From Actinospica robiniae DSM 44927 (GTDB lineage: Bacteria > Actinomycetota > Actinomycetes > Streptomycetales > Catenulisporaceae), in NCBI RefSeq assembly GCF_000504285.1, contig NZ_KI632511.1, positions 2,787,372 through 2,851,371 on the forward strand: a stretch of DNA of 64,000 bases, in the 5' to 3' direction. A program made the position numbers and the translations under genes. Positions 3,669 to 35,754 of the stretch are shown here, one piece after another. The notes below the pieces were generated by a model. It was not told where the DNA came from. It was given only the letters and a program-made list of their open reading frames with translations, and did no database searches. The stretch's first letter is position 1. Every line of letters begins with the position of its first letter.

Positions 3669-3730
3669 CCGCGCGGGTCAGGCAATCGTCAGGACGTCTC
3701 GGCGACTTCCGGATGGTGATGCGCGGCTTC

Positions 3731-4225
3731 ACTGCGAATTGATGATCGGTTGAGCGCTCATGGGGTGGGGTGGCTTGCCGGGTCAGCGTGGTGATCGTTG
3801 GGTCGTGGGCGGCCGCTTCGTCTGACCACCCGCCCACCCGTTGCGTTAGCCGGGCGTGTTGCAGTTTCAAGATCGAAAGGCGCCGCTGGCAGGCCCTTCC
3901 CTCGGAGAGAGTGCCGGGGTCCTTCGGGTGCTGTCGTTTGTGGGGCGGGCTCGGGTTCGGGGTGGTCGGGTGCCGGGGGTGTGCTCTCTCCTCGGTCGGT
4001 CCCCGGAGGCAATCAGGGACCTGCCGGGAGGTCAAGCGGCGGCGGCCCTCGTTGATGCTCGATCTTGCATCGCGCCGCTTGACCTCCCGGCAGAACCCTG
4101 ATCGGGCTTCGCCTGCCCGACCGAGGAGAGAGCCCACCCCCTGGGGAGTGGTGCGAGCTGCGCTCGGGCCGATTCCCGTCCCGCGGCGCGATCACGCTCG
4201 ATCAGGAAGAATCCTGCATCGCCGT
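3731..4225. repeat. Left arm of a long imperfect inverted repeat
   Basis: This ~495-base arm matches the reverse complement of 4668-5176. Shared blocks, read inward, include a TTGATGATCGG stretch near 3740, GTGGTGATCGTTG near 3788, TGCCCACCCGTTGCGTT-like sequence near 3830, GCTCTCTCCTCGGTCGG near 3982, and GAGCTGCGCTCGGGCCGA near 4153. The arm itself carries a smaller inverted repeat at about 4010-4110 (CTGCCGGGAGGTCAAGCGGC against GCCGCTTGACCTCCCGGCAG). Short frames across it are similar between arms but look like by-products of the DNA repeat. No gene is supported here. Confidence 0.85.
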
Positions 4226-21660: not shown

Positions 21661-22467
21661 TCACAGCGCGAGGTCGGCGAGACTTTCGGCGGTCAGCTCC
21701 TCCGGATCGCCGCGCCACTCCTCGGAGACCGGCTGATGCGTCGAGACGACGCCTAGCAGCCCGTCCGCGGTGACGACCGGGATCGAGACGCAGGAGCCGA
21801 CCCCGGAGCGGATCAGCACCTCGAGTTCGGGGCTGCCGGCGAAGATGGGCGAGTTGGACACGTTGCGCACGTAGACCGGGCGCTGATCGGTGGCGGCGGC
21901 GCCGCAGCTGGTGCCGTAGCCCCGCACCGTCTCGAAGAACGAGGAGAACCGCTGGCCGAAGCCGGGAGTCGCGACCAGCCGCAGCGTCCCGGTGGCCTGG
22001 TGGAAGTACTGCGCGCTGCCCATCCGCGCACCGGTCGCCCTCATCGCCTGGGCCAGCGCGTCGGACAGCGTCTCGACGTGCGCCTGCGCCGCGTCCTCGG
22101 CCGCGACCGCGAGCCCGAAGTCCCAGGGGTAGGGCAGACCGGTGGCCTGCATCACATAGCGCACCGAGCTGTGCGGGTTGGCGATGTCGAGACGGATGCC
22201 GAGCTCCGCCAGCCGCAGATACTGCCGGTAGATCGCCCGCGCACCCGGGACGTCGCAGAACGTCAGCCGGCTCAGGTCCAGGGTCAGCCGGTTCGCGGCC
22301 CGGAACCGGACCCGCTCGAGGAGCGCCTCGAACGCCGAGACCGAGCCGTAGTCCAGCTCACCCGCCACATGCAGCAGCACCGTGCGCTCGCTCACGGTGA
22401 CCGCGGAGCGCAAGGCCGAGCCCGGGGACGACCACCTCACTGCCTGACTCCGATCCAGCACATCCAC
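21661..22467 (-). CDS. STAS-GAF regulatory protein
   Basis: 268 residues: an N-terminal STAS domain (about 20-115) and a GAF domain (about 135-262). The STAS loop reads FCDVPGARAI, where anti-sigma antagonists usually have D-S-S/A-G; the phosphorylatable Ser is missing, so it may not be switched by an RsbW kinase. The GAF domain (QATGTLRLVATPGFGQRF, VGSCVSIPVVTADGLLGVVS) could bind a small ligand or cluster. It is divergent from the STAS gene at 22639 and is probably a sensory input to the partner-switching region. Confidence 0.85.
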   Translation of the reverse strand: MDVLDRSQAVRWSSPGSALRSAVTVSERTVLLHVAGELDYGSVSAFEALLERVRFRAANRLTLDLSRLTFCDVPGARAIYRQYLRLAELGIRLDIANPHSSVRYVMQATGLPYPWDFGLAVAAEDAAQAHVETLSDALAQAMRATGARMGSAQYFHQATGTLRLVATPGFGQRFSSFFETVRGYGTSCGAAATDQRPVYVRNVSNSPIFAGSPELEVLIRSGVGSCVSIPVVTADGLLGVVSTHQPVSEEWRGDPEELTAESLADLAL

Positions 22468-22638
22468 CCACCATAGCCTCCGCGGCCGTCGCGTCGCGCA
22501 TCACGTCGCACCGAATAACCCGACGCTGGTCGGGCACCCGAAGACGGACGCCGCAGGCTGACGGCGCGAACGCGGACCGGTGGGCTTCGCGGCGGCCGAC
22601 TGCGCGCGCGCCGACAACAAATCAGTGTATTACCATTA

Positions 22639-23022
22639 GTGCGCGGAGTGAGTGACGTGGAGAACTTCGACACCCCGACCATGGCGCGGATCGAGCGGGG
22701 CATACGCGTGATCGCCGACGGCCCGCGACTCGCCTTGCACGGCGACCTCGACATCGACACCGCGCCGGTGCTGCTCGACGTCGTCTTCGCGCGGCTCGCC
22801 GACTGCGGCCGGCACGGCATGGCGCGGCTGGAGATCGACTGCGCCCGGCTCGACTTCTGCGACTCCAGCGGACTGGCCGCGCTGCTGCTGGCGCGGCAGC
22901 GATCCGAGGAGGCCGGGGTGGGCCTGAGCCTGCGCCGGCAGCCCGAACATCTGCGCCATCTGCTGGAGCTCACCGGGATTCGCGCGCTCTTCCCGCCCGA
23001 GCACCCGCCGGATTCTCCATGA
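22639..23022 (+). CDS. STAS-domain anti-anti-sigma factor
   Basis: 127-residue single STAS domain (about 28-115). It keeps FCDSSGLAALL, with the Ser that RsbW-type kinases phosphorylate in SpoIIAA/RsbV proteins. Unphosphorylated it should bind an anti-sigma kinase and free its target. The assigned start at 22639 gives a short N-terminal tail; a downstream start is possible. It opens the plus-strand run leading to rsbR, with a gap of about 117 bases. Confidence 0.88.
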   Translation: MRGVSDVENFDTPTMARIERGIRVIADGPRLALHGDLDIDTAPVLLDVVFARLADCGRHGMARLEIDCARLDFCDSSGLAALLLARQRSEEAGVGLSLRRQPEHLRHLLELTGIRALFPPEHPPDSP

Positions 23023-23139
23023 ACGTTTCGGCCGTAGACCCCGTTTCCTTCCGGCGCGACCGGGTAACGCGAAGCAGGCCCCGGCGAATGGACGCACGGG
23101 CCGCGCTAGGCGCTGCGCGCCGAGGGAAGAGGTAAAAAA

Positions 23140-23988
23140 GTGAATCAGGGGTCCGCAGATCACCTGCTCGGTCTGATGACGACGCGGCGGGAGGAGCTCG
23201 CCGCCAACTGGATCGAGGTGGTCTCCGCCACCCTGGCCGGCCGGATCAGCCAGGCCGAGATCGACCGGGAACTGCACGAGCTCTACGCGGCCATCGTCCA
23301 GGCCGTGCACACCGGCGGCCTGGAGGCGGGCGGCGAGCACTACACCGAGGTGCGGGCGCTGCTGGCCGAACTCTCGCGCAACCGCGCGCGGCAGGGCTTC
23401 ACCCCGGCCGAGACCGCGGTCAGCGTCTTCGCCCTCAAGCAGAGCCTGCAGCAGCTGCTCGACGAGGGCTCGTCCGCCGACATCGGCGCGTACCTGGCGC
23501 TGAGCCGGTTGACCGACGAGCTCGGCATGTTCACCGTGGACAGCTACGCCGCCACCCGCGAGGAGATCATCAGCGCGCAGGCGGAGGAGCTGCTCGAGCT
23601 CTCCACGCCGGTGGTCAAGCTGTGGGACGGGGTCATCGGCGTGCCGCTGGTCGGCACCCTCGACTCCGCGCGCACCCAGGTGGTGATGCAGAAGCTGCTC
23701 GAAGCCCTGGTGGACACCGGCTCCGAGCACGCGATCATCGACATCACCGGCGTGCCGGCGGTGGACACCGAAGTCGCCCAGCACCTGCTCAAGACCGTCG
23801 TCGCGGCCCGGTTGATGGGCGCCGAGTGCGTCGTGTCCGGTATCCGGCCGCAGATCGCCCAGACGATCGTGGCGCTGGGCATCGAGTTCGGCGACATCGT
23901 GACCAAGGCCACCCTCGCCGACGCGCTGCGTCACACGCTCCGCCGCTCCGCCGAGACCAATGCCCGGCGCACGGAGGCGAGCGCATGA
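23140..23988 (+). CDS. rsbR: RsbR-type stressosome protein
   Basis: 282 residues. The N-terminal ~140 are an all-helical RsbRD/RsbR-type sensor region (TTRREELAANWIEVVSATLA). A STAS domain follows (about 160-275: VPLVGTLDSARTQVVMQKLL, AIIDITGVPAVDTEVAQHLL). The VDTEVA Thr matches the site that RsbT phosphorylates in RsbR of Bacillus. Together with RsbS it should build the stressosome scaffold holding RsbT. The downstream gap to rsbS is filled by a 77-base tandem duplication. Confidence 0.9.
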   Translation: MNQGSADHLLGLMTTRREELAANWIEVVSATLAGRISQAEIDRELHELYAAIVQAVHTGGLEAGGEHYTEVRALLAELSRNRARQGFTPAETAVSVFALKQSLQQLLDEGSSADIGAYLALSRLTDELGMFTVDSYAATREEIISAQAEELLELSTPVVKLWDGVIGVPLVGTLDSARTQVVMQKLLEALVDTGSEHAIIDITGVPAVDTEVAQHLLKTVVAARLMGAECVVSGIRPQIAQTIVALGIEFGDIVTKATLADALRHTLRRSAETNARRTEASA

Positions 23989-24139
23989 GCGAGCTTGCGA
24001 GCGAATCAATGAGCACAGAGTGTGCGCGAACGCGCCGACCGAGCTCTAGCGAGGTCGCGTCGTGAGCGAGCTTGCGAGCGAATCAATGAGCACAGAGTGT
24101 GCGCGAACGCGCCGACCGAGCTCTAGCGAGGTCGCGTCG
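23986..24139 (+). repeat. 77-base tandem duplication between rsbR and rsbS
   Basis: Two copies of 77 bases (23986-24062 and 24063-24139), identical as far as I can read, begin at the rsbR stop TGA and end at the rsbS start; the next bases repeat the opening TGAGCGA. Each copy starts GTGAGCGAGC or ATGAGCGAGC and contains GAGCGAGCTTGCGAGCGAAT, itself partly palindromic. There is no gene inside. Confidence 0.9.
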
Positions 24140-24516
24140 TGAGCGAAAGACTGCCCATTTTGCGGATCGGTTCTACCCTCCTGGTCTCCATCCAGGTCGA
24201 CCTGGACGATCAGACGGTGCTCAACCTGCAAGAAGACCTGGCCGACGAGGTAGTCAAACACAGTGCCCGCGGCGTGATCATCGACATCACCGCGGCCGAG
24301 ATCGTCGACTCCTTCGTCGGCCGGATGCTGGCCACGATCGCGGCGATCAGCCGGCTGCTGGACGCCGAGACGGTCGTGGTCGGGATGCGTCCGGCGGTGG
24401 CGATCACCCTCGTCGAGCTCGGACTCTCCCTCGGCGGCGTGCGCACCGCGCTGAATCTGGAGCAGGGGCTGGCGATCCTGGCCGAGCGCTCCGCCGCGAC
24501 CACGGCGGGTCCGTGA
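24139..24516 (+). CDS. rsbS: RsbS-type STAS protein (RsbT antagonist)
   Basis: 125-residue single STAS domain: LPILRIGSTLLVSIQVDLDD, GVIIDITAAEIVDSFVGRML, ETVVVGMRPAVAITLVELGL. The Ser in VDSFVGR corresponds to the RsbT-phosphorylated Ser of RsbS. In the stressosome, RsbS sequesters RsbT until both scaffold proteins are phosphorylated. The GTG start lies directly at the end of the tandem repeat, so the duplication has moved the start away from rsbR. The stop overlaps the rsbT start (GTGA). Confidence 0.92.
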   Translation: MSERLPILRIGSTLLVSIQVDLDDQTVLNLQEDLADEVVKHSARGVIIDITAAEIVDSFVGRMLATIAAISRLLDAETVVVGMRPAVAITLVELGLSLGGVRTALNLEQGLAILAERSAATTAGP

Positions 24517-24932
24517 CCACGCCCACGAACGCGGCGGCCGGCCGAACCCAACCCATCACCACCTCCGACGACGTGGTGCGTGCGCGGCAGCTGGCGCGCA
24601 CGCTCGCGGTGGAGTGCCGGTTGTCGTTGGTGGACCAGACGAAGCTGGTCACCGCCGCGAGCGAGCTCGCTCGCAACACCCTGGTCTACGGCGGCGGCGG
24701 CCTGATGTCCGGCGGGGTGCTCGAACGCACCGGCCGGCGCGGGGTGCGCCTGAGCTTCGCCGACGACGGGCCCGGGATCGCGGACGTGGACCTGGCGCTG
24801 AGCGACGGCTGGTCCTCGGGCAGCGGCATGGGCCTGGGCCTGAGCGGCGCCCGGCGGCTGGTCGACGAGTTCGACCTGCGCACCGGGCCGGGCGAGGGCA
24901 CGACGGTGACGGTGACCAAGTGGGCCCACTGA
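24513..24932 (+). CDS. rsbT: RsbT-type serine/threonine kinase
   Basis: 139-residue GHKL ATPase-fold kinase. N box SELARNTLVYGGGG, G1 box DDGPGIADVD and G2 box GSGMGLGLSGARRLVDEF are intact. RsbT phosphorylates RsbR and RsbS and, once free, activates a PP2C phosphatase. The GTG start overlaps the rsbS stop. The next gene, a kinase-phosphatase protein, starts inside its 3' end (13-base overlap), the expected partner position. Confidence 0.92.
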   Translation: MTTPTNAAAGRTQPITTSDDVVRARQLARTLAVECRLSLVDQTKLVTAASELARNTLVYGGGGLMSGGVLERTGRRGVRLSFADDGPGIADVDLALSDGWSSGSGMGLGLSGARRLVDEFDLRTGPGEGTTVTVTKWAH

Positions 24933-26020
24933 ACGCGCTTGATCTGCCGCCCGACCCGCACGAGGGCGTCTGGCTGCGCCAGCAGGTCGCGCTGCCGGGC
25001 CAGGCCCGCCGGGCCGCCGCGCAGTTCGCGCGCCGGGCCGCCCTGGGCGCGGACCGCATCTCAGAGATCGAACTCGCCGTGACCGAGGTCGCGGTGAACC
25101 TCAACCGGCACGCGGAGGACGGCTCCCTGCTGCTGCGGCTGCTGCGCACAGCCGCCGGCCCGACGGTGGAACTGCTCGCCATCGACCACGGGCCGGGCAT
25201 CGCGGACCTGGCCACGGCGCGGCGGGACGGCTACTCCTCGGCCGGCACCCTGGGCGTGGGCCTCGGCGTGGTGCAGCGGATGGCCGACACCTTCGACGTC
25301 CAGTCGCTGATGGGCCGGGGCACCGTGCTGCTGGCGAGGTTCCAGGACCGCGCGGACGCGCCGTACCCGGAGCCGGCGGTGGTCGGGCTGACCCGGCCGC
25401 TCAGCGGCGAGACCGTGTGCGGCGACGCTTGGGCGGTGCGCACGGTCGGGGAGCCGGCCGAAGCGGAGCCGGCCGGCGAGGAGTCCGATCCGGGCGCCGA
25501 GCAGCTGCTGGTCGTGCTCTGCGACGGCCTCGGCCACGGGCCGCTGGCGGCCCGCGCCAGCGCGCACGCGGTGACGGCCTTCCGCCGGGCGGCCGCGACC
25601 GAGCCGACCGAGATCGTCAGGGCTCTGCACTCGGCGATGGCCGGCACTCGCGGCGGCGCCCTCGGCGTGGCCCGGATCGACCTGCGCACGCGACGGGTGT
25701 CCTACTGCGGCGTGGGCAATATCAGTGCCTTCATCGTCACCGATCTCGGTCGCTCCAGCCTGCTCTCCGCGCCCGGGATCGTGGGCCACCACCTGCCCCG
25801 GCTGCGCGGCTTCGAGGCCGATCTGCCGGCCGGCGCGAGCCTCGTACTGCACTCCGACGGGCTGACCGAGCGCTGGGATCCGTCCTCGATGGCCGGCCTG
25901 TTGCGCCATCCCGGCACGGTGATCGCGGCGCAGCTGCTGCGCGAGGCCGGGGTGCGCCGCGACGACGCCGGCGTCGTGGTGGTCAAGACGGCCGAGGCGG
26001 CGCCGGGAGGCCGGCCGTGA
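24920..26020 (+). CDS. GHKL ATPase-PP2C (SpoIIE) fusion, RsbX/RsbU-like
   Basis: 366 residues. Residues about 10-130 are an RsbT/RsbW-like ATPase domain (ELAVTEVAVNLNRHAEDGSL, IDHGPGIADL, GVGLGVVQRMAD); about 145-360 are a SpoIIE/PP2C phosphatase (VCGDAW, LCDGLGHGPLAARASAHAVT with Asp202, HSDGLTERW, RRDDAGVVVV). Such proteins directly follow RsbT in actinobacterial stressosome operons and probably dephosphorylate RsbR/RsbS or a stand-alone STAS protein. The start GTG at 24920 overlaps rsbT. Confidence 0.88.
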   Translation: MGPLNALDLPPDPHEGVWLRQQVALPGQARRAAAQFARRAALGADRISEIELAVTEVAVNLNRHAEDGSLLLRLLRTAAGPTVELLAIDHGPGIADLATARRDGYSSAGTLGVGLGVVQRMADTFDVQSLMGRGTVLLARFQDRADAPYPEPAVVGLTRPLSGETVCGDAWAVRTVGEPAEAEPAGEESDPGAEQLLVVLCDGLGHGPLAARASAHAVTAFRRAAATEPTEIVRALHSAMAGTRGGALGVARIDLRTRRVSYCGVGNISAFIVTDLGRSSLLSAPGIVGHHLPRLRGFEADLPAGASLVLHSDGLTERWDPSSMAGLLRHPGTVIAAQLLREAGVRRDDAGVVVVKTAEAAPGGRP

Positions 26021-27762
26021 CCGGCGTCCCGCTGCTCGCCACGGCCCTGTCGAGCGAGCCGGACGTGTTCGCGCTGCGGCGCGACGGGCGCACGGTGGCC
26101 GAGGTGCTCGGACTCGCCCCGCAGGACCAGATCCGGCTCGCCACCGCGCTCAGCGAACTCGGCCGCGACCGGCTCGGCTGCGCCGAGGTCACCATCCGCT
26201 TCACCCTGCTCGCGCAGCCCGCCGCCACCCTCGAGGTGACGCTGCGCTGGGCCGGGGGGCCGGCCCCCGGCGCCGACGCGCTGCGCTCCGCGCACCGGCT
26301 GGTGAGCGACCTGGACCACGAGATCTGCGGCACCGGCGGCCGGATCGTGCTGCGCCAGCCGGTGCGCCTGCCCGAAGCACACTTCGCCGAGGCGGCCGAA
26401 CGCGTCGCGGCGGCCGTCCACGACGGCTCGGCCACCAGCCGGGAGGAGGACCTGCGCATGCAGACCAGAGATCTGATACTCGCACTCGAACAGGCCCGCG
26501 CCCACGGGGACGAGCTCCAAGCGCTCAACGCGGAGCTCGAGCAGACCAACGCGGGCGTGATGGCGCTCTACACCGAGCTCTCCAGCGAGCTGGAGCAGAC
26601 CAACATCGGCGTGGTCGCCCTGCACGCCGAGCTGGAGGACAAGAGCCGGCGGCTGCGCGAGGCGAGCGAGGCCAAGACCCGGTTCTGGGCCAACGTCAGC
26701 CACGAGCTGCGCGGGCCGCTCAACTCGGTGATCGGCCTGAGCCGGCTGCTGGCCGAGGCCCCGGACGGGGAGCTCGGCGAGCAGCAGCGCCACCAGGTCG
26801 CGCTGATCGCAGCGTCCGGCGAGACCCTCCGGGCCCTGGTCGACGAGCTGCTGGACGTGGCCAAGGCCGAGGCCGGGCAGCTGGTGCCGCAGCCGGTGCA
26901 GGTGGATCTCGGCCTGGTGCTGGTGCAGCTCGAAGCCGTCATCCGGCCCTCGCTCCCCCGGCCGCAGGTCGAGCTGCGCTTCCCCGGGCCCACCGGACTG
27001 CCGGCCCTGGTGACGGACGAGACGATGCTCATCAGGATCCTGCGCAACCTGATCTCCAACAGCGTCAAGTTCACCGAGTCCGGCCACGTGCGGATAGAGG
27101 TGGCCGAGCCCGAACCGGACTCGGGCCGGATCGCGATCCTGGTCGAGGACACCGGGATCGGCATCCCGGAGGCCGAACACGAGCGGATCTTCGAAGAGTT
27201 CTACCAAGTCCGCGGCGCGCACCAGCGCGGCAAGGCCGGCACCGGGCTCGGCCTGCCCTACGCGCGCCGGCTGACCGAGCTGCTCGGCGGAAGCCTCACC
27301 GTCGACTCGGAACCCGGCCGCGGCACCCGGATGACGGTCACCCTGCCCGTCGCCGCCGACCCGGCGCCCACCTCGTTCGCGAAGGTGCCGTGCCTGGTCA
27401 GCGCGGACGACGACCCGGCCTTCGCGGCAGCGTTCCGGCCGCTGCTGGACCGCATCGCCGAGCGGGTGGTGCAGGTCGCGGACGGCGCCGACCTGCTCGC
27501 CGCGGCCCGCCAGGAGCACGCGGCCGCGCTGGTCGTCGACCTGGACATGCCGCAGGTGGACGGCTACGAGGCGGTGCGCCGGCTGGCCGACGCCCCGGAT
27601 CTGGTCGACGTCCCGGTCGTGGTGGTCACCGCGTTCCCGCCGGAGCAAGTGGATCGGACCCGGCTGGCCCACGCCCGGGCCGTCCTGGCGAAGGACAGCG
27701 TCGACGTCCCCGAACTCGCCCGCGCCCTCGGCGTGCCGGCCCGGAAACCGGAGTCCCGATGA
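26017..27762 (+). CDS. Hybrid histidine kinase with RsbT-like N-terminus and C-terminal receiver
   Basis: 581-residue cytosolic kinase with no TM segment. Order: a degenerate RsbT-like ATPase region (1-130, PQDQIRLATALSELGRDRLG but weak later boxes), a coiled coil (about 145-220) with a twice-repeated ELEQTN-GV-AL element, HisKA with VSHELRGPLNS (His229), HATPase with NLISNSVKF, DTGIGIP and GTGLGLPYARRL, then a receiver (about 455-570) with Asp508 in VVDLDMPQ. It joins the two-component and partner-switching worlds. GTG start overlaps the preceding stop; its own stop overlaps the next ATG. Confidence 0.88.
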   Translation: MTGVPLLATALSSEPDVFALRRDGRTVAEVLGLAPQDQIRLATALSELGRDRLGCAEVTIRFTLLAQPAATLEVTLRWAGGPAPGADALRSAHRLVSDLDHEICGTGGRIVLRQPVRLPEAHFAEAAERVAAAVHDGSATSREEDLRMQTRDLILALEQARAHGDELQALNAELEQTNAGVMALYTELSSELEQTNIGVVALHAELEDKSRRLREASEAKTRFWANVSHELRGPLNSVIGLSRLLAEAPDGELGEQQRHQVALIAASGETLRALVDELLDVAKAEAGQLVPQPVQVDLGLVLVQLEAVIRPSLPRPQVELRFPGPTGLPALVTDETMLIRILRNLISNSVKFTESGHVRIEVAEPEPDSGRIAILVEDTGIGIPEAEHERIFEEFYQVRGAHQRGKAGTGLGLPYARRLTELLGGSLTVDSEPGRGTRMTVTLPVAADPAPTSFAKVPCLVSADDDPAFAAAFRPLLDRIAERVVQVADGADLLAAARQEHAAALVVDLDMPQVDGYEAVRRLADAPDLVDVPVVVVTAFPPEQVDRTRLAHARAVLAKDSVDVPELARALGVPARKPESR

Positions 27763-29378
27763 TCGCCGACGGCGCCGCCGGGATCGAGACCGGCCGCGTC
27801 CTGATCGTCGACGACAACGCGGCCAACCGCTATCTGCTGGCGCAGTGGCTGCGCCGGGCCGGCCACGAGGTCGTCGAGGCGCTCGACGGCACCGAGGCGC
27901 TCGAGACCCTGGCCGGGCTCTCGCCGGACGCCACGCCGGAAGTCGCCGTGCTCGACGTCATCCTGCCGGACATGACCGGATTCGAGCTCTGCCGCCGGAT
28001 CAAGGCCGCGCCCGCGACCGCGGACATGCCGGTGATCCACGTCTCGGCCACCGCGATCTCCGTCGCCGACCGCGCGCAGGGCCTGCACGAGGGCGCCGAC
28101 GCCTACCTGACCGAGCCGGTCGACCACGACGAGCTGCTCGCCACCCTCACCGCGGTGCTGCGCTACACCCGGGCCCGCCGGATCGCGCAGCGGCTGGCCG
28201 ACCGGCTGCTGCGGCTCAACGAGGCCACTCTGGACCTGTACCGCGCCACCGACTTCGCCCGGTTCGCCATGGCCGCGGTCTCCGGCGCCCGGACCGTGCT
28301 CGGGGTCGAAGCGGCCGGCGTGTACCTGAGCGTCTCCGGCCGGCCGGTGCGCACCTACCGGCTCACCGGCGAGGACGCGGTGGTGAACGAGCCGATCTCG
28401 AGTGAGCTGCTCGAAGAAATCGCTTACCGCGCGCTCGGCGCGAGGCCGGGCGCGGGCATAGCGCTGATGACACAGCAGGAGTGGCGCGAGATCGTGCCCA
28501 AGCCGCGGCTGAGCGGGGACATCCTGGTCGCGGCGGTGCGCGCCCGCGCCGACCGTCCACCGGTCTGCGTCGCGATCTCGTGCGAACGCGCCCCCGCCGA
28601 CGACGATCGCATGCTGCTGATTCAGATCGCCCAGGCCTGCGCGCTGGCCCTGGAATCCCTGCGCAGTTACACCGAGCAGCACGCGCTCGCCCTCGAGCTG
28701 CAGCGCTCCTTCCTGCCCAGCCGCCCGCCCGAGACCCAGGGCGTGCGGCTGGCCGTGCGCTACGTCCCGGCGAGCGCGCAGGCCGAGATCGGCGGGGACT
28801 TCTACGAGGCGATCGAGACGCCGGGCGGCCTGCTGCTGGCGATCGGCGACGTGGTCGGGCACTCGCTCGAGGCGGCCATCCTGATGGGCGAGGTGCGCCA
28901 CGCGCTGCGGGCCTACGCGATCGAGAACCATCCGCCGGAGCGGATCCTGAGTCTGCTCGACAGTGTGCTGCTGCACGGCCGGACCCAGCTGGCCACCGCG
29001 ACGCTCTGCCTGGTGCTGGTCGAGCCGGGCTGCCGCCGGGTGCGCATCGCCAACGCCGGCCACGTCCCGCCGCTGCTACTGGCCGCCGACGGAGACCGCT
29101 TCGTCACCGAGCACGGCCGGCTGCTCGGCCTCGGCGGCGGCAGCTACGAAGCCACCGCGATCGAGCTGGCCGGGCCGACCCGGCTGGTGCTGTGCACCGA
29201 CGGCCTGGTCGAGGTGCGCCGGGAGGATCTGAGCAAGTCGCTGGCCGGCTTCGCCGACGCGGCGCGCCGCGGCCCGGCCGGACTGGAAGAGTTCTGCGAC
29301 GCCCTGCTGGACGAGTTCGGCCGGGCCAAGGACGACGACATCGCCCTGCTCGCGGCCGATCTCACGCCGGGCGCCTGA
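27759..29378 (+). CDS. Response regulator with SpoIIE/PP2C output
   Basis: 539 residues. Receiver domain 1-130 (VLIVDDNAANRYLLAQWLRR, Asp66 in AVLDVILPD; the usual KP Lys is replaced in TEPVD). A middle GAF-like region (about 145-300) leads to a SpoIIE/PP2C phosphatase (about 320-535): LQRSFLPSRPPETQGVRLAV, IGGDFYEAIE, GDVVGHSLEAA, LCTDGLVEVR, KDDDIALLAAD. It is translationally coupled to the hybrid kinase and is the likely recipient of its phosphate; its substrate should be one of the phosphorylated STAS proteins. Confidence 0.9.
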   Translation: MIADGAAGIETGRVLIVDDNAANRYLLAQWLRRAGHEVVEALDGTEALETLAGLSPDATPEVAVLDVILPDMTGFELCRRIKAAPATADMPVIHVSATAISVADRAQGLHEGADAYLTEPVDHDELLATLTAVLRYTRARRIAQRLADRLLRLNEATLDLYRATDFARFAMAAVSGARTVLGVEAAGVYLSVSGRPVRTYRLTGEDAVVNEPISSELLEEIAYRALGARPGAGIALMTQQEWREIVPKPRLSGDILVAAVRARADRPPVCVAISCERAPADDDRMLLIQIAQACALALESLRSYTEQHALALELQRSFLPSRPPETQGVRLAVRYVPASAQAEIGGDFYEAIETPGGLLLAIGDVVGHSLEAAILMGEVRHALRAYAIENHPPERILSLLDSVLLHGRTQLATATLCLVLVEPGCRRVRIANAGHVPPLLLAADGDRFVTEHGRLLGLGGGSYEATAIELAGPTRLVLCTDGLVEVRREDLSKSLAGFADAARRGPAGLEEFCDALLDEFGRAKDDDIALLAADLTPGA

Positions 29379-29390
29379 CCCGGACGGCTT

Positions 29391-29437
29391 CGGCCCGGCC
29401 GGTCCCGCTCTGACACAGAGTGGGACCGGCCGGGCCG
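29391..29437. terminator. Strong bidirectional hairpin
   Basis: 21-base-pair stem with a single G-T wobble (29391-29411 with 29417-29437) and loop GACAC, between the PP2C gene and the convergent STAS gene. Confidence 0.75.
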
Positions 29438-29454
29438 GCGGCCATGGGTCGGGG

Positions 29455-29850
29455 TCAGCCCGCCACCGCGTGCTCCACGTCCGGGTAGAGATCGAAGTAC
29501 TCCAGCGTCCCGGTCAGCTCGAGCACCCGGTTGACCTCCATCCCGACACCCGCCAGCCGCAGCGAGGCCTGGTGGTCCACCGCCCGGCGGTGGATGTCGA
29601 GCAGCGCCCGCAGCCCCGAGGAGTCGCAGAACCCCAGCCCCGACATGTCCAGGATCACCGGGCCGTCGAGCAAATGGTCCGCCACCGCCTCCCGCATCCG
29701 CTCGCAGGACCCCAGGTCGAGGTCGCCGGCCAGCCGGACGACGGTGTGCTGCGCGGACCTGTCGATCCGGACATCGAGTTCGCCCGCCACATCCATCCTT
29801 GCCACCCATCCACTCATGCTTATTCCGATGTCGGCCGACCGGCCGGTCAT
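29455..29850 (-). CDS. STAS-domain anti-anti-sigma factor
   Basis: 131-residue STAS protein (domain about 28-125) with intact FCDSSGLRALLDIH phosphorylation loop. I chose the ATG at 29850 because it overlaps the stop of the upstream kinase gene (ATGA); the ATG at 29817 (MSGWVARMD) is also plausible and shortens the tail. Kinase and antagonist in one coupled pair is the classic RsbW-RsbV arrangement, here in the order kinase then STAS. Confidence 0.88.
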   Translation of the reverse strand: MTGRSADIGISMSGWVARMDVAGELDVRIDRSAQHTVVRLAGDLDLGSCERMREAVADHLLDGPVILDMSGLGFCDSSGLRALLDIHRRAVDHQASLRLAGVGMEVNRVLELTGTLEYFDLYPDVEHAVAG

Positions 29851-30365
29851 CCGGCCCGGCCACGGGCCAGGGACACCGACACCGTCTTGCCCGAGGCGTG
29901 CACCCGGGTCTCGACCTCGCCGGCGAGTTTGCGCAGCATGTGCAGGCCGAAACCGCCCAGGCCCTCGGGCTGCGGCGGCTTGGCCCGGGGCACGACGCTC
30001 GAGGTGTCGCTCACGGCGATGTGCACGTACCCCTCGTCCAGCGCGAGCCGAAGCGTGCACGGCCCGGGCGCGTGTCGCACCACGTTCGTCACCAGCTCGC
30101 TGATCGCGAGCAGGGCGTCTTGCACGGTGGTCTCGGCCACCGCCGGCTCGGCCCGCTCCAGGAAGTCACGCGCGTACTCGCGCGCGGCGGGAATCGAACC
30201 GGAGCCCCCCGGCAGCTCGCGCGTCATACACCGCTTGTCGTCATCCACAATGCTGCTCAGCCCCACTTGTCCTCTTCGCTGCCGCGCGGGGTGCGACATC
30301 GTCCGCGCCCGAGCGTACCCCCGCGGGGTCGGGCCGGTCTCCGTATCCGTCGCCTCGTCGATCAC
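29847..30365 (-). CDS. RsbW-type ATP-binding anti-sigma kinase
   Basis: 172-residue GHKL kinase-fold protein (domain about 50-168): DALLAISELVTNVVRHAPGP is the N box, with VSDTSS and GLGGFGLHMLRKLAGEVETR as G1/G2 equivalents. Such proteins bind a sigma factor or other target and phosphorylate their STAS partner. The first ~45 residues are basic and not conserved, so the true start may be a downstream ATG (MSHPARQRR or MTRELPGG). Coupled to the STAS gene at 29455. Confidence 0.88.
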   Translation of the reverse strand: MIDEATDTETGPTPRGYARARTMSHPARQRRGQVGLSSIVDDDKRCMTRELPGGSGSIPAAREYARDFLERAEPAVAETTVQDALLAISELVTNVVRHAPGPCTLRLALDEGYVHIAVSDTSSVVPRAKPPQPEGLGGFGLHMLRKLAGEVETRVHASGKTVSVSLARGRAG

Positions 30366-30401
30366 GCTGCCACCTCGGCGTGGTCACGGTGCGTACGGCG
30401 C

Positions 30402-30752
30402 TCAGTCGCGCGCATGGCCGTCGGTCTCGCAGTGCGCGAGGACGTGGCAGTGCCCGTCGTCGGTGTAATGCGCCTCGTCCACCAGGACCCGTACGGAATC
30501 GAGGTTCGAGGCCGCGCGGCGGGTGGCGGCGGCGCGCAGCAGCGTCGCCACTGCCGCCTGGGTGTCATCGCCGGCCACCGCGCCGGACACCGTGACGCAC
30601 AGGCGCCCCCCGGCCAGGGACGCGGCCTGGTCGAACTGCTCGCCGAGCGCGGCGATGAACGCCGGCTCGGGGCTGCGTATGTCGGCGTGCGGCTGCAGGC
30701 GCAGCTGGTAGCTGGTGGAGCCGGGCGGCTCGGCAACGTGCTGCGGGCTCAA
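30402..30752 (-). CDS. Hypothetical protein
   Basis: 116-residue protein of unknown family. The coding frame is the one reading SYQLRLQPHADIRSPEPAFI and LCVTVSGAVAGDDTQAAVAT; a second open frame over the same DNA has random-looking Arg/Pro/Ser composition. The start is probably the TTG at 30752 with AAAGGA upstream; a GTG further up (30779) is possible. It lies upstream of, and 36 bases from, the RsbW-type gene on the same strand and may belong to that operon. No motif identified. Confidence 0.55.
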   Translation of the reverse strand: MSPQHVAEPPGSTSYQLRLQPHADIRSPEPAFIAALGEQFDQAASLAGGRLCVTVSGAVAGDDTQAAVATLLRAAATRRAASNLDSVRVLVDEAHYTDDGHCHVLAHCETDGHARD

Positions 30753-30984
30753 TAACCATGTCCTTTCCACGAATGACTCCGGCCGATCTTGCGGCGCCGG
30801 GAACCCGTCGAGACCGGCGAGTCCGTATGCCCGGCGTGATCTCGGCCAAACGGTGGCCCCCGCGGGTTTTTGCCGCATCCGCTCAGACCCGCCCGTCTCA
30901 CGCCTGACTCACGCCTGACTCGAATGACTCGCGCACATTCGGGTATGCGGGAGCCCCACCGTCACCCGCTCGAGGAGTACCGCC

Positions 30985-31449
30985 ATGCCGCCTGTGGATC
31001 CCGACGCCTTCGCCCACCTGAGCCTGCGCCTGCGCACGTCCGGGCCGATCCGGGGGCGCCGCGGCACTCCGGTGCTCTCGATCGAGGGCGAGCTGGACCG
31101 CTCGACGGTGGCCTCGCCGGAGTGGCGGGCGACGGTGGCCGAGGCGGCCGGGCAGCCCGGCGACGTCGTCGTACTCGACCTCAGCCGCCTGTATTTCCTG
31201 GACCTGGCGGGCCTGGCCGAATTCGAGAAGCTGGCCGCCTCGCTCGCCGCGGCCGGCCGGCGGCTCGCGCTGGCCGCGATCCGCCCGCGGATCCGCGAGT
31301 TCCTCCGGCAGGCCTGCGCGGATTTCGGAGACGAATATACTGAACTGGATGAACAGGACGGCATCGGTGCGGGGCCCGCGTGGGAGCCGGTCCCGGCGCG
31401 CAAGCCGGCCGTGGCCCGGCCGGCCGCGGCCGGCCTCGCGGCGGCCTGA
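30985..31449 (+). CDS. STAS-domain protein lacking the phospho-serine
   Basis: 154 residues: STAS domain about 20-118 plus a Pro/Ala-rich tail. The usual DSSG loop reads FLDLAGLAEFE, so the Ser/Thr acceptor is absent. It could act as a constitutive binder or pair with other STAS proteins rather than as a phosphorylation switch. AGGAG lies eight bases before the ATG. It begins the second plus-strand run of this region. Confidence 0.8.
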   Translation: MPPVDPDAFAHLSLRLRTSGPIRGRRGTPVLSIEGELDRSTVASPEWRATVAEAAGQPGDVVVLDLSRLYFLDLAGLAEFEKLAASLAAAGRRLALAAIRPRIREFLRQACADFGDEYTELDEQDGIGAGPAWEPVPARKPAVARPAAAGLAAA

Positions 31450-31560
31450 GCCCGCACCCGGCCCGAAGCTCCGGCGAATGCCGGGTGAACCGCGCCGGGC
31501 CGAGTCGATAAGCTGCTCCGGGCGGCGCGATCAGAGTGCCGCTGGAAAGGAGGCGCCGGC

Positions 31561-32046
31561 GTGATGTCGTCAGACCGCCGCGTGCCGTCCCCGCAGCTCG
31601 CCGACACGCAGCTCGCCGACACCTCGTACGGCCCGGATCCGCAGCCGCTCGAGCGCGGATCCGGCGACGCCACCATCGCCGAGGCGCGCGCCGCCGTCGC
31701 CGACTACGTCACCGCGCACTGCCCCTGGGTCTCCCCGCAGGGCGTCGTACTGGCAGTCTCCGAGCTGGTGAGCAACGCGATCCGGCACGCCGACGGCTGG
31801 TGGCTGCTGCGCGTACGCGCGGGCGAGGAGGAGCTGGCGGTCGAGATCGAGGACCGCAGCCCGGCCCCGCCCGAACCGCGCCGGCCCGACTACACCGGCG
31901 AGGGCGGCCTGGGCCTGCACATCGTGGCCCGCCTCGTCTCCCGATTCGAGGTGGAGGCGGGCGTGCCCGCGGGCGGCAAGACCGTGCGGGCGGTGTGGTG
32001 CCGCGAGGCGGACGAGCCGCACCGGCTCACGGCGCAAGGCCGTTGA
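31561..32046 (+). CDS. RsbW-type ATP-binding kinase
   Basis: 161-residue GHKL fold protein (domain about 35-150): GVVLAVSELVSNAIRHADGW N box, VEIEDRSPAPPEP in place of a clear G1 box, GGLGLHIVARLVSRFEV G2 box. Probably phosphorylates a STAS partner such as the protein at 32110, 63 bases downstream. N-terminal 30 residues contain a short direct repeat (PQLADTQLADT). A GGAAAGGAGG-like site precedes the GTG at 31561. Confidence 0.87.
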   Translation: MMSSDRRVPSPQLADTQLADTSYGPDPQPLERGSGDATIAEARAAVADYVTAHCPWVSPQGVVLAVSELVSNAIRHADGWWLLRVRAGEEELAVEIEDRSPAPPEPRRPDYTGEGGLGLHIVARLVSRFEVEAGVPAGGKTVRAVWCREADEPHRLTAQGR

Positions 32047-32109
32047 CCGGTAGGATCGCACAACGCGGTCCGCGCCACGCCATGCCGCCCCTGAACCCCC
32101 GGAAACAAG

Positions 32110-32475
32110 GTGTCGGAAGTGGACGAGCATCAGGGCTTCGCGTTGAGCACGCCGCCGACCGTGGACGACGCGACCGGCCATCTGCTCCTCGCCGCGGCCG
32201 GAGAGCTCGACCTGGCCTCCGCCGGCGAGCTGCGGCTGATCCTGCTGCGGGCGCTGCGGGAGCACACCGTCGTGCTGGAGATGCGGGAGCTGACGTTCTG
32301 CGACTCGGCCGGCCTGCGCACCGTGATCGAAGCGCACCGGCACGCCCAGAAGTACGGCACCGCCCTGCGGATCGCCGCCCCCTCGGCCGCCCTCACCCGC
32401 GTGTTCGACCTGGCCGGCGCCACCGGCATCATCGCCACCTACCCCGACGTGGCCAGCGCGCTCGCGGCGGGCTGA
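32110..32475 (+). CDS. STAS-domain anti-anti-sigma factor
   Basis: 121-residue STAS protein with FCDSAGLRTVIEAH carrying the acceptor Ser, and a GELDLASAGELRLILLRALR first half typical of RsbV/SpoIIAA proteins. The GTG at 32110 follows AACAAG. It is likely the antagonist of the kinase encoded just upstream. Confidence 0.88.
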   Translation: MSEVDEHQGFALSTPPTVDDATGHLLLAAAGELDLASAGELRLILLRALREHTVVLEMRELTFCDSAGLRTVIEAHRHAQKYGTALRIAAPSAALTRVFDLAGATGIIATYPDVASALAAG

Positions 32476-32639
32476 GCCCCGGCCGGCCGCCGGCCCCGGC
32501 ACCGGCCCCCGGCGAGAAGAACATCCTTGCGAACCCGACCCGTTTGGGCCCGGTCCGATCGGCAACCCCGAGTTCAGCGAATCCTGACGCGCATCAGTAA
32601 GCCGTCACGCGATACCGGACAGATAAGGGGTTTTCCATC

Positions 32640-32813
32640 GTGGGTGTCATTCTGTTGGTCCTGCTGCTCGCGCTCGTGCTCGGCGGGCTCGGCTTCGCCG
32701 CGCACGTGCTGTGGTGGATCGCGGTGATCGTCTTCGTGGCCTGGCTCATCGGCTTCGGCATCAGGAGCGGCGAGTCGTCCGGCGGCCGGCGCCGCTGGTA
32801 CGGCCGCTGGTAG
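32640..32813 (+). CDS. Small hydrophobic two-TM protein
   Basis: 57-residue protein with two adjoining hydrophobic helices (VILLVLLLALVLGGLGFAAH and VLWWIAVIVFVAWLIGFG) and a basic, Gly/Arg/Trp-rich tail ending RRRWYGRW. This layout is common in short actinobacterial membrane proteins of unknown role. GTG start with AAGGGG nine bases upstream. It lies between the STAS gene and the coiled-coil gene, in the same direction. Confidence 0.7.
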   Translation: MGVILLVLLLALVLGGLGFAAHVLWWIAVIVFVAWLIGFGIRSGESSGGRRRWYGRW

Positions 32814-32833
32814 GCCGGGGGGCGGTGGTGGAG

Positions 32834-33271
32834 ATGACCGAGGGCCAGCACAGCGCCATCCTCGTCGCGCGGTACGAACACACCCGCGCGCAGGTCCGGG
32901 CGAATCAGGCGGTGGACGTGGCCGAGGACATCCTCGGGCACGCCTGGGTCGACCAGCTCGCCGCCCTGCGCCGCCGGGTCTCCGACCAGGTCCGCGCCTC
33001 CTGCGACACCGCCCAGGCGGCCTGGAAGCTGCTCCAGCACGCCGAGGGGAGCGGGGACGCACGTGAGATCGCCACCGCCCGCCGCATGCTCGGCCGGGCC
33101 CGCACGAACCTCACCGAAGACCTCGCCGCGGCCCGCCTCGAGCTCGCCGAGATCGACGGGCAGCTGCGCCGCGTGCACCAGGCCGCACTCGACCGGCTGC
33201 ACCGCCGGCACGAGGACTTCGACCGCCTGCAGGCGGCGCACACCGCGGCCTTCGGCACCGCGCGCGCGTAG
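32834..33271 (+). CDS. Coiled-coil protein of unknown function
   Basis: 145-residue, almost wholly alpha-helical protein rich in Ala, Arg, Glu and Gln with heptad-like spacing (DQVRASCDTAQAAWKLLQHA, LTEDLAAARLELAEIDGQLR). No enzyme or DNA-binding motif seen. The ATG at 32834 is 20 bases after the small hydrophobic gene; a GTG nine bases earlier is possible. Followed by a strong terminator, so it probably ends the transcription unit. Confidence 0.65.
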   Translation: MTEGQHSAILVARYEHTRAQVRANQAVDVAEDILGHAWVDQLAALRRRVSDQVRASCDTAQAAWKLLQHAEGSGDAREIATARRMLGRARTNLTEDLAAARLELAEIDGQLRRVHQAALDRLHRRHEDFDRLQAAHTAAFGTARA

Positions 33272-33667: not shown

Positions 33668-34234
33668 ATGGAGTCGCTCATGAGCTTACCCACCCGCGCT
33701 CCGGGCACCGGGCCTGCCGAGGCCGCGCCGGGCCAGGCTGGGAGTTCGGACCGGAAGGTCGAGCTGCGTTGGGTGGAGCGTGAGGATCTCGAAGCGATCG
33801 CGGATCTGGACCATAAGACCTTCCCCGATATGCCGTATCCGCTGTTCGTGCTGCGCCAGCATCTGGATGCCAAGCCGCAGAGCATCTTCCTGGTGATCGA
33901 GGAGGACGGGGTGGTGGGCGGGTACGCGCTGGCACTGGTGATCTCGAGCCGCCGGAAGGCCTGGCTGCTCGGGATCGCGGTCGCGGAGGAGTACCGAGGC
34001 CGGCACTACGGCGACCGACTGCTCTCCTCGGTCCTGGAACAGTGCCGGAACCAGGGCGTGCGGCAGGTGTTGATCACCGTGCGTCCGAACAACGACGCCG
34101 CGTTGGGCCTGTACAAGAAGTACCACTTCCGCAAGACCTCACGCGAAGAGAACTACTACGGGGATCTGCAGCCCAGGGAGATCCTGCGGTCTAAACTCTA
34201 CGAGGCTCCGAGCCCGTTCAGTTACAGCGCCTAG
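33668..34234 (+). CDS. GNAT-family N-acetyltransferase
   Basis: 188-residue GNAT protein (domain about 30-165). The acetyl-CoA-binding loop is EEYRGRHYGDRLL and the later VRPNNDAALGLYKKYHF is the typical strand-helix end of RimI-like enzymes. It may acetylate a protein N-terminus or small amine; substrate unknown. It is close to the protein encoded at 35140-35754 on the opposite strand: they share MPYPLFVLRQH, PQSIFLVIE and ITVRPNN-AALGLYKKY blocks, so the two are recent paralogues. Confidence 0.88.
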   Translation: MESLMSLPTRAPGTGPAEAAPGQAGSSDRKVELRWVEREDLEAIADLDHKTFPDMPYPLFVLRQHLDAKPQSIFLVIEEDGVVGGYALALVISSRRKAWLLGIAVAEEYRGRHYGDRLLSSVLEQCRNQGVRQVLITVRPNNDAALGLYKKYHFRKTSREENYYGDLQPREILRSKLYEAPSPFSYSA

Positions 34235-34271: not shown

Positions 34272-35135
34272 TCAGAGCCGGAACCATTTGCGCGTGAGCA
34301 GCACACTGAAGATCGCTATGGAGAAATCACCCGCGTAGCACTCCACCGTCACGGTGTAGATGCCCGGCAGCGGCAGGCCCTTGAGATCGCTGAGGCCGAG
34401 CGGGTTGAGGTAGTTGACCAGGCAGATGTGCAGCGCCAGGGCGAAGTCGTCCGCTGACAAGAGGGTCAGCAGGCCGCTGAACACGGCCAGTTGGACGACC
34501 ATGACGAGCAGCAGGCGGCCGGGGCGGTATCCGTACCCGCAGAGCAGATCGGCCAGCCGCATGCCGATCCGCACGAGTCCCGGCGGCCGGTACCGGCACT
34601 TCATCTGCCGTTCGGCCAGCGCACAGCGGTCCTGGGCCTTGTGATCCTGCAGCGACAGGTAGACGTTCGCCGCGCGCTGGAAGGCGAACGCGGCGTGGGC
34701 GAAGCAACCGACCCGGCCGAACTCGGCGCCGAGGGTCTCGTAGCGCTTAGCCAGCGCGGTGTTCTGGGCCCGGTGCAGCCGGTACTCGCCCTGCGACTCG
34801 ATCTCCGCGGCCAGCAGCCCGCGCACCAGCGCCCGCCTGCGCACGGCGGGGTTCTCGGACTCGATCCGGGGATCGAGTTCGACCGGCTCGAGCCGCAGAC
34901 TGCCGCTTCGGCCGTACGGTCGGCTGGCGAAGCTGATGTTGAACAGCTCGACCGCCCGGTCGAGCCGGTCGTCCAAGTCGGCGAGCAGGGCCTCCTCGTT
35001 CGGCGGCGCCGCCTGGCTCTCCTTCGCCGGACCGGGCTGGAGAGCTTCCTCCAGCATCGGCGCGTACTCGTTCACGCGCCGCTCGATCCAGATGACGATA
35101 CTGCTGTCTGCCGGGCTTTCGAAGAAGTCCGACAC
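34272..35135 (-). CDS. Two-TM membrane protein of unknown function
   Basis: 287 residues. The N-terminal ~190 are soluble and helical with a Tyr/Ala-rich part (FAHAAFAFQRAANVYLSLQD) reminiscent of TPR-like helices. Two hydrophobic segments follow (LLLVMVVQLAVFSGLLTLLS and a C-terminal YAGDFSIAIFSVLLTRKW). The spacing of two helices around a loop ending EC-YAGDF superficially resembles a pore module, but no selectivity filter is present. It begins four bases after the GNAT gene at 35140 ends, so the two are one transcription unit. Confidence 0.7.
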   Translation of the reverse strand: MSDFFESPADSSIVIWIERRVNEYAPMLEEALQPGPAKESQAAPPNEEALLADLDDRLDRAVELFNISFASRPYGRSGSLRLEPVELDPRIESENPAVRRRALVRGLLAAEIESQGEYRLHRAQNTALAKRYETLGAEFGRVGCFAHAAFAFQRAANVYLSLQDHKAQDRCALAERQMKCRYRPPGLVRIGMRLADLLCGYGYRPGRLLLVMVVQLAVFSGLLTLLSADDFALALHICLVNYLNPLGLSDLKGLPLPGIYTVTVECYAGDFSIAIFSVLLTRKWFRL

Positions 35136-35139
35136 TCTT

Positions 35140-35754
35140 TCAGGATCCTGCCTCGCCGCTGAGCAGGCCGCCTGGTTTCGAACCGAAGCCGTGCGAGAGG
35201 CCGCCCCCCAATCTCGCCCGTATGGGGTCGCCCTGGAGCTTGGCCTGCATGATCTCCCTGGGCTCCCGATTTCCGTAGTAGTTCTCTTCGCTGGAGGTCT
35301 TGTGGAAGCCGTACTTCTTGTAGAGACCCAGGGCCGCTTCGTTGTTCGGCCGGACGGTGATCAATACCCGCCGCGCACCCCGGGACGCGCAACTGGCCAA
35401 GACCGCCGCTAACAACCGGTCGCCGTAGCTTTGGCCCCGGTAGTCTTCCGAGACCGCGAGAGCGAGCAGCCATGCTTTGCGGTGGTTCGACACCACCGTC
35501 GCCAGAGCGTATCCGCAGATCGTCTCGTCGGCCTCGATCACCAGGAAGATGCTCTGCGGCCGGGCGTCCATATGCTGGCGTAGGACGAACAGCGGATAAG
35601 GCATCTCGGGGAATACCTCGCGGTCCAGGTCCGCCACCGATTCAAGATCCTCACGCCTCGCCCAGCGCAACTCCGCCCCGGCGGCCGAAGCCCGGTCCTG
35701 ATCCGATCTGTGATCGGAACGGCTGACTGTCGAGGCGTCGCCGGACGAGTTCAT
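35140..35754 (-). CDS. GNAT-family N-acetyltransferase
   Basis: 204-residue paralogue of the enzyme at 33668-34234, with acetyl-CoA loop EDYRGQSYGDRLL and VRPNNEAALGLYKKYGF. Its C-terminal tail (GGGLSHGFGSKPGGLLSGEA) is longer and Gly-rich. It is the first gene of a minus-strand pair with the two-TM protein, which could be its partner or substrate. ATG at 35754. Confidence 0.88.
   Translation of the reverse strand: MNSSGDASTVSRSDHRSDQDRASAAGAELRWARREDLESVADLDREVFPEMPYPLFVLRQHMDARPQSIFLVIEADETICGYALATVVSNHRKAWLLALAVSEDYRGQSYGDRLLAAVLASCASRGARRVLITVRPNNEAALGLYKKYGFHKTSSEENYYGNREPREIMQAKLQGDPIRARLGGGLSHGFGSKPGGLLSGEAGS

Follow-up and report, generated by a model that had tools for sequence, protein, structure and literature searches.

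The RsbU phosphatase of Bacillus is activated when RsbT binds to its N-terminal domain and linker and orders a coiled coil, and such linkers have been proposed as the part common to phosphatases, kinases and cyclases (PMC12143880, the main text of which mentions GHKL 0 times). Stressosome loci with two-component outputs and without a sigma factor have been published for Vibrio and others (PMC9237108, PMC10014275). In Mycobacterium smegmatis, the receiver-PP2C protein RsfR has been demonstrated to act on a STAS antagonist, with phosphorylation lowering that activity (PMC10950880), and in Streptomyces coelicolor SCO7325 (an RsbV-type antagonist) and SCO7327 (OsaD) have been named in osmotic stress (PMC9739823). 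In this work, we describe an 11.6-kb stressosome locus of Actinospica robiniae DSM 44927, whose 9.92-Mb genome forms a single contig. The window, i.e., the whole stretch of 64,000 nucleotides that was analysed, is C1:2787372-2851371, and positions below are window positions unless marked C1. A preliminary description, made from the letters alone, had presented the arrangement as new, but sigma-free stressosome loci with two-component genes were already published (PMC9237108, PMC10014275). The core of the locus is thus of a known kind, and its new element is an RsbT-derived domain at the predicted input end of the histidine kinase.

The conserved core operon

The core consists of six genes on the plus strand, with domains assigned by Pfam: rsbR (23140-23988; RsbRD_N sensor domain and STAS), rsbS (24139-24516; STAS only), rsbT (24513-24932), a GHKL-PP2C gene (24920-26020; HATPase_c_2 and SpoIIE), a hybrid histidine kinase gene (26017-27762) and a receiver-PP2C gene (27759-29378; receiver at 27798-28148, SpoIIE domain at 28821-29360). 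RsbT is a GHKL switch kinase whose N-box, G1 and G2 motifs are also visible in an alignment of 24 chosen RsbT sequences. The hybrid kinase begins with a domain that we call pseudo-RsbT (26023-26367, residues about 3-117), which has a GHKL fold without the N-box Asn and the ATP lid, and continues through a coil segment (26470-26670) into HisKA, HATPase_c and receiver domains. The coil segment carries a repeated TNxGVxAL motif, read from the sequence and found in orthologues as well. Among the best 25 matches of longer lists, none of the core proteins received an equivalog-level NCBIfam name above cut-off.

The claimed stressosome, STAS, RsbW-type, PP2C and hybrid-kinase genes were all found by Pfam where the preliminary description had placed them. 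Its joining of a stressosome to a phosphorelay was likewise borne out, both being found within one operon: from rsbS through receiver-PP2C, each gene shares 4 to 13 bases with the next, as expected of a one-operon arrangement. Judged by strands and gaps, the genes probably form at least four transcription units rather than the three that it had counted, i.e., minus 22467-21661, plus 22639-29378, minus (30752-) 30365-29455 and plus 30985-32475.

The motif residues expected of a stressosome are kept. RsbR, RsbS and RsbT are encoded adjacently and in order, with phosphorylatable residues and the ATP motifs of RsbT, and the positions that we equate with the Bacillus phosphosites are invariant over 41 aligned rows (S at the Ser176 and T at the Thr210 position of RsbR, and S at the Ser58 position of RsbS, each 41/41). 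GHKL-PP2C keeps the N-box Asn and the G1 Asp in 41/41 rows and is probably an RsbX-like resetting phosphatase with a GHKL domain of its own. In the hybrid kinase, the HisKA His is present in 32 of 33 rows (the other has a gap), and the kinase's own receiver has its Lys in all 22 rows that reach the position. In receiver-PP2C, the acceptor Asp (Asp66 in the window) and the Asp at each of four metal positions are kept in 33/33 rows. These features suggest an RsbU-like output phosphatase, and Pfam found no RsbU_N ahead of its PP2C domain, giving receiver and SpoIIE only.

To assess how far this core is shared, we searched the order for RsbS, and 165 of 293 genomes gave a match at E <= 1e-10. By E value, the listed matches separate into two sets: 41 places other than the window form a close group with E <= 2.3e-45, and the rest form a distant group with E >= 7.5e-37. 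We read 40 of the 41 close places, from 38 genomes (G170 was dropped for a stop in frame), with genes taken as stop-to-stop frames and labelled by their best match to the window proteins rather than by Pfam. All 40 close loci contain rsbR, rsbS, rsbT and GHKL-PP2C, and 32 of them complete the core with a coil-HisKA kinase and a receiver-PP2C; in 31 of these 32, pseudo-RsbT lies in the same frame as the kinase. In six further loci, a single pseudo-RsbT-coil-PP2C fusion replaces the last two genes (five in one frame, L085 split), while L079 is without an effector and the effector of L094 is broken. This exchange of kinase for PP2C suggests that pseudo-RsbT and coil act as a unit ahead of either effector. 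The six-gene order rsbR-rsbS-rsbT-(GHKL-PP2C)-kinase-(receiver-PP2C) is therefore a conserved operon. The same cannot be said of the whole 11.6 kb, which had been described as a single module: the flanking STAS/RsbW set is repeated in none of the 40 relatives, and we rejected the larger unit on that ground.

A second sample consisted of the best 80 loci retrieved with an RsbT profile from named genomes, 27 of them actinobacterial; genomes common to both samples include L142/G248, L158/G057 and L150/G290. Its hosts include Pseudomonas, Variovorax, xanthomonads, other Burkholderiales and a Planctomycetaceae metagenome-assembled genome. rsbR, rsbS and rsbT occur together in 80/80 of these loci, a gene best matching GHKL-PP2C in 79/80 (L187 being the exception) and a coil-bearing effector in 73/80, the coil motif itself being a criterion. 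The 73 effectors comprise 24 kinases with pseudo-RsbT, 47 kinases without it, one PP2C fusion (L152) and L163, which is cut by a contig end. By host, pseudo-RsbT was found in 23/23 actinobacterial effectors versus 3/50 others (L163, L196 and L202). The core arrangement is widespread, the R-S-T order followed by a histidine kinase being found also in Pseudomonas, Burkholderiales and xanthomonads.

The junction between the rsbR stop and the rsbS start (23986-24140) is occupied by two tandem copies of a 77-base unit, which encodes a 26-codon open reading frame whose stop overlaps the next start. A 21-base core of this unit has 23 copies in the genome, versus 0 matches for a reversed control pattern, and the copies often stand two or three in tandem, spaced 71 or 77 bases. 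The unit is a dispersed start-junction repeat.

The N-terminal domain of the hybrid kinase

Residues 1-214 of the kinase gave no Pfam match at E <= 0.01, and the preliminary description makes no mention of an RsbT-derived domain there. We aligned the pseudo-RsbT region of the window with those of 34 of the 38 strongly matching loci (L067, L070, L085 and L094 were left out), and the resulting 35-row profile matched the RsbT profile with P 1.5e-9 over 105 columns. The best of 50 column shuffles reached P 0.015. Among the controls, the GHKL domain of the RsbX-like gene matched RsbT with P 7.4e-4, and HisKA, receiver, RsbS and RsbR with P 0.12 or worse. The receiver-PP2C set also matched (P 1e-6), because fused proteins are among its rows. 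Two other origins for the domain were rejected on the same comparison, namely an RsbW-type domain (P 0.15 for the RsbW type versus 1.5e-9) and a copy of the kinase's own ATPase (P 0.07).

The structural prediction is in keeping with this homology. The AlphaFold2 model of pseudo-RsbT is a b-a-a-b-b-a-b-b domain with a mean predicted local distance difference test score (pLDDT) of 96, and a Foldseek search with it returned 19 matches at E <= 0.001, 18 of which are RsbW, SpoIIAB, UsfX/anti-SigF or Rv1364c chains and the remaining one a histidine kinase. Superposed on RsbW by VIA-align, the model gave a Z of 15.4 and a root-mean-square deviation of 1.7 over 102 residues. When the pseudo-RsbT profile was compared to solved structures by sequence, it retrieved only three matches, the best at E 0.46, whereas the RsbT profile does find SpoIIAB.

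The domain differs from RsbT where RsbT would bind ATP. The N-box Asn, present in 24/24 RsbT rows, is found in 0/35 pseudo-RsbT rows, which have D (27), H (6) or E (2) instead, and the ATP-lid segment with the G2 motif is missing. With both lost, the domain is RsbT-derived without being an RsbT kinase. In a quick tree of 88 chosen GHKL domains (136 columns), RsbT and pseudo-RsbT group together with an SH-like approximate likelihood ratio (SH-aLRT) of 89, and each of four groups lies on one side of a branch, with support of 94 for RsbT, 75 for pseudo-RsbT, 61 for the RsbX-like domains and 100 for the RsbW type. On the evidence of profiles and model, residues about 3-117 of the kinase are best described as a degenerate RsbT. 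The second sample provides what reads as a decay series: L163 has the ATP motifs, L196 has the N-box and G1 but no lid, and L202 and the actinobacteria are without them. In L163, a Marinimicrobia metagenome-assembled genome, the RsbT-like domain with ATP motifs and the coil (3277-3912) directly follow the stressosome genes, and the contig ends inside this gene; judged by its motifs, the domain looks like the ancestral state of pseudo-RsbT. A phylum-wide search with the pseudo-RsbT profile found it in 19/396 genomes at E <= 1e-4, with values below 1e-8 in four of these, a weak search in that only 10 candidates were scored per genome. No prior description of the domain was found in the literature searched, which left out most subscription papers.

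More diverged effectors were sampled as group 2, 20 places out of many, and aligned for 13 of the 14 loci with a coil-bearing effector (L114 was left out). At the front of these stressosome effectors stands a half domain, which matches RsbT with P 1e-7 (50 shuffles no better than 0.052) but pseudo-RsbT only weakly (P 1.3e-4, probability 54). The model of this half domain is less confident (pLDDT 82) and had no fold match at E <= 0.001, the best being RsbW chains at E 0.003, and the counterpart of the coil segment is modelled as one long helix. The SCO7325-SCO7327 region of Streptomyces coelicolor is presumably a group-2 stressosome locus, a likeness drawn by description rather than by sequence.

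Neighbouring genes and the predicted output

The core is flanked by five further STAS genes and two RsbW-type kinase genes, all assigned by Pfam. Upstream lie a STAS-GAF gene (21661-22467, minus) and a STAS gene with a DSSG site (22639-23022, plus), the latter upstream of rsbR. Downstream, a STAS antagonist gene with a DSSG phosphosite (29455-29817, minus) pairs with the kinase gene W1 (29847-30365, minus; HATPase_c_2), which has it 29 bp downstream, and after a STAS gene (30985-31449, plus) the kinase gene W2 (31561-32046, plus; HATPase_c_2) is followed 63 bp further on by its paired antagonist gene (32110-32475, plus; DSAG phosphosite). The STAS-GAF gene, the STAS genes at 22639 and 30985, and W1 are lineage-specific neighbours. 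Among the five extra STAS proteins, those encoded at 21661 and 30985 have the usual phosphorylatable Ser replaced, as read from the sequence.

The crowding of STAS genes is not chance in this genome. Seven of its 31 PF01740 matches fall within these 11.6 kb; without RsbR and RsbS, the count is 5 of 29 versus 0.034 expected, and none of 20,000 random placements put five into any window of that size. The two same-genus loci (L061 and L064) have no STAS or RsbW match outside the core. Around the 40 close loci as a whole, 14 RsbW-type and 16 STAS genes were found, in 16 of the loci. Both are over-represented, since the density of such genes in this genome would predict roughly 2.5 and 1.5; the yardstick is rough, as genomes and detection methods differ and as the RsbW-type value was calculated from 48 genome matches, with 50 above cut-off.

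A small protein without a Pfam match is encoded between W1 and the 30985 STAS gene (30402-30752), and a homologue of it (102 bits) is found just upstream of rsbR in the same-genus L061. Farther downstream, two GNAT acetyltransferase genes that are alike by eye (33668-34234, plus, and 35140-35754, minus) flank a gene for another protein without a Pfam match (34272-35135).

The absence of a sigma factor from the locus, as first reported, was upheld: neither a Sigma70_r2 nor a SigB-type match occurs in the 64-kb window, and we therefore rejected a sigma factor hidden within it. Outside the window, the closest Sigma70_r2 matches of the genome stand at 8.6 kb on the upstream side and 12.0 kb on the downstream side, which puts them about 30 kb and 43 kb, respectively, from the locus. 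The genome has six SigB/F/G-type sigma factors above cut-off, the nearest of them 30 kb upstream, where an RsbW-type ATPase gene, a SigB-type sigma gene and a MEDS + ATPase gene, the last of which we take to be RsbA-like, stand in a row on the minus strand (L118 7157-9399, C1:2777156-2779398). This SigB-type factor is a possible partner of the pathway.

In relatives, a SigB-type sigma factor occurs within about 20 kb in 5/40 close loci (L058 and L072, both cut by the locus edge, L080, L084 and L092) and in 13/20 group-2 loci, many of which share synteny. In L080, rsbR is immediately preceded by an RsbW-type gene, next to which stands a divergent sigma gene, L084 has an RsbW-type gene and a convergent sigma gene after its fused effector, and in L152 RsbW-type and STAS genes follow the effector. 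The preliminary description had held that a sigma factor immediately outside the locus in relatives, pairing with its kinases, would make this a standard module; as regards position, that is what L080 and L084 show, 2 of the 40. Its suggestion that the output may be a non-sigma target fared less well, as the terminal enzyme is a PP2C with the metal Asps kept and as the operon is accompanied, in both of these loci, by an RsbW-type gene and a gene for a SigB-type sigma factor. With sigma, RsbW-type and STAS genes near the core in relatives and the nearest sigma factor here 30 kb off, we favour a sigma factor as the output, reached in trans by way of pairs of RsbW and STAS proteins (e.g., W1-29455 and W2-32110). 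Read from these families and motifs, the output is most likely the action of the PP2C on STAS proteins, and then most likely on SigB-type sigma factors.

Proposed pathway, alternatives and known systems

The gene order, families, motif states, homology and fold described above fit a pathway from stressosome to phosphatase with a phosphorelay inserted midway, pseudo-RsbT as its input and a sigma output in trans, and we lean slightly towards this proposal as a whole. RsbR and RsbS would form the sensory complex, RsbT would be the switch kinase and GHKL-PP2C the RsbX-like phosphatase that resets the complex. The hybrid kinase would receive its input through the RsbT-derived pseudokinase domain and then the coil, with pseudo-RsbT docking on the RsbR/RsbS surface or pairing with RsbT. 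Once RsbT phosphorylates and leaves the complex, pseudo-RsbT would alter the coil, and the coil would set the activity of the kinase, which would pass phosphate to Asp66 of receiver-PP2C. The phosphorylated receiver-PP2C may then change its dephosphorylation of STAS antagonists, for which RsfR is a precedent, and the antagonists would compete for RsbW-type kinases, e.g., those of the two neighbouring pairs, so releasing SigB-type sigma factors encoded elsewhere. The direction of signalling, the phosphotransfer and the target STAS and sigma proteins are thus predictions. By analogy, the simplest reading is that the unit of pseudo-RsbT and coil senses the stressosome, with pseudo-RsbT as input domain in the place held by RsbU_N in Bacillus. 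That a duplicated RsbT, fused ahead of a histidine kinase, became a pseudokinase plug, and with it a second output connector that is independent of RsbU_N and interchangeable between effectors, seems to us evenly balanced.

Several observations weigh against this proposal. Of the coil-bearing effectors in the second sample, the 47 without a model-detectable pseudo-RsbT (Pseudomonas, xanthomonads and most Burkholderiales) show that the domain is not required for every stressosome-kinase link. In group 2, a simple model detects it in only 1/14 coil-bearing effectors, the others resting on profile comparison, and its standing as one group in the tree has a support of 75 from 136 columns. The receiver of receiver-PP2C is atypical, with Ala at the Thr/Ser position in 33/33 rows, Lys in 4/33 and Glu or Gln in 28/33, so that a classical phosphoswitch is not certain. 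Finally, no SigB-type sigma factor was found in any of the 80 second-sample loci, which span up to 16 kb.

The first of these observations would be expected if the coil alone were the input, with released RsbT binding the coil of the kinase and pseudo-RsbT serving as a lineage-specific modulator, e.g., a cis clamp on the coil. The coil is present in 73 of the 80 loci (a constancy that is not independent, its motif being the criterion), and RsbT contacts the linker of RsbU and orders its coiled coil (PMC12143880). We nevertheless consider this possible rather than probable, since pseudo-RsbT is kept in PP2C fusions and in every one of the 23 actinobacterial effectors, and thus seems to be under selection where present. 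The same conservation bears on a more radical view, that the domain has no role and is only the decayed remnant of a fusion between genes: its ATP motifs are lost and relatives without it exist, yet nine of its columns never vary among the 35 rows, whose mean identity is 46%, its model is well folded and it is retained in 31/32 kinases as well as in fusions, all of which makes a remnant highly improbable. At the other end of the pathway, the STAS/RsbW proteins may control something other than a sigma factor. The five extra STAS and two RsbW-type genes found here without a sigma factor in the window, together with the sigma-free second-sample loci, would suit such an output, and SiaABC of Pseudomonas is a STAS/GHKL pathway with another output (PMC7647112). 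The sigma and RsbW-type genes at the operon in L080 and L084, the SigB-type factors near the group-2 loci and the six SigB/F/G-type factors of this genome render it unlikely.

If such a second output connector exists, it would explain how kinases without RsbU_N receive the signal of some stressosomes, and the RsbT-derived domain, which has no Pfam match, is a concrete candidate for the connector ahead of such kinases and phosphatases. Placing the end of the pathway at the PP2C would also narrow the search for the output to STAS proteins.

Compared to described systems, the second half of the core resembles RsfS/RsfR- or RsbK/RsbY-type pairs, in that a histidine kinase gene adjoins a receiver-PP2C gene with an acceptor Asp. 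The RsbK kinase of Bacillus cereus is of the hybrid type and contains a signalling helix (PMC4574943), and in RsfS/RsfR a histidine kinase likewise stands with a receiver-PP2C that controls a STAS antagonist (PMC10950880). The abstracts of these two papers mention no stressosome genes, the sensor domains differ, and the receiver switch residues are atypical in the present protein, which is likened to RsfR and RsbY by description only. The Bacillus subtilis RsbRST-RsbU system is similar in that a stressosome controls a PP2C through a domain and a linker ahead of it (PMC12143880). Here, in contrast, RsbU_N is replaced by the RsbT-derived domain, a kinase and a receiver are inserted in the window, and the operon has no sigB. 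Closest in gene order is the RsbRSTX locus of Vibrio vulnificus with VvD1/VvD2, where rsbR-S-T-X is followed directly by a two-component system, again without a sigma factor, although the Vibrio RsbR senses through a globin domain and cyclic di-GMP is the predicted target of the output (PMC9237108, PMC10014275). In the Actinospica operon, by comparison, a GHKL domain is encoded within the RsbX-like gene, the kinase begins with pseudo-RsbT, and the output protein is a PP2C.

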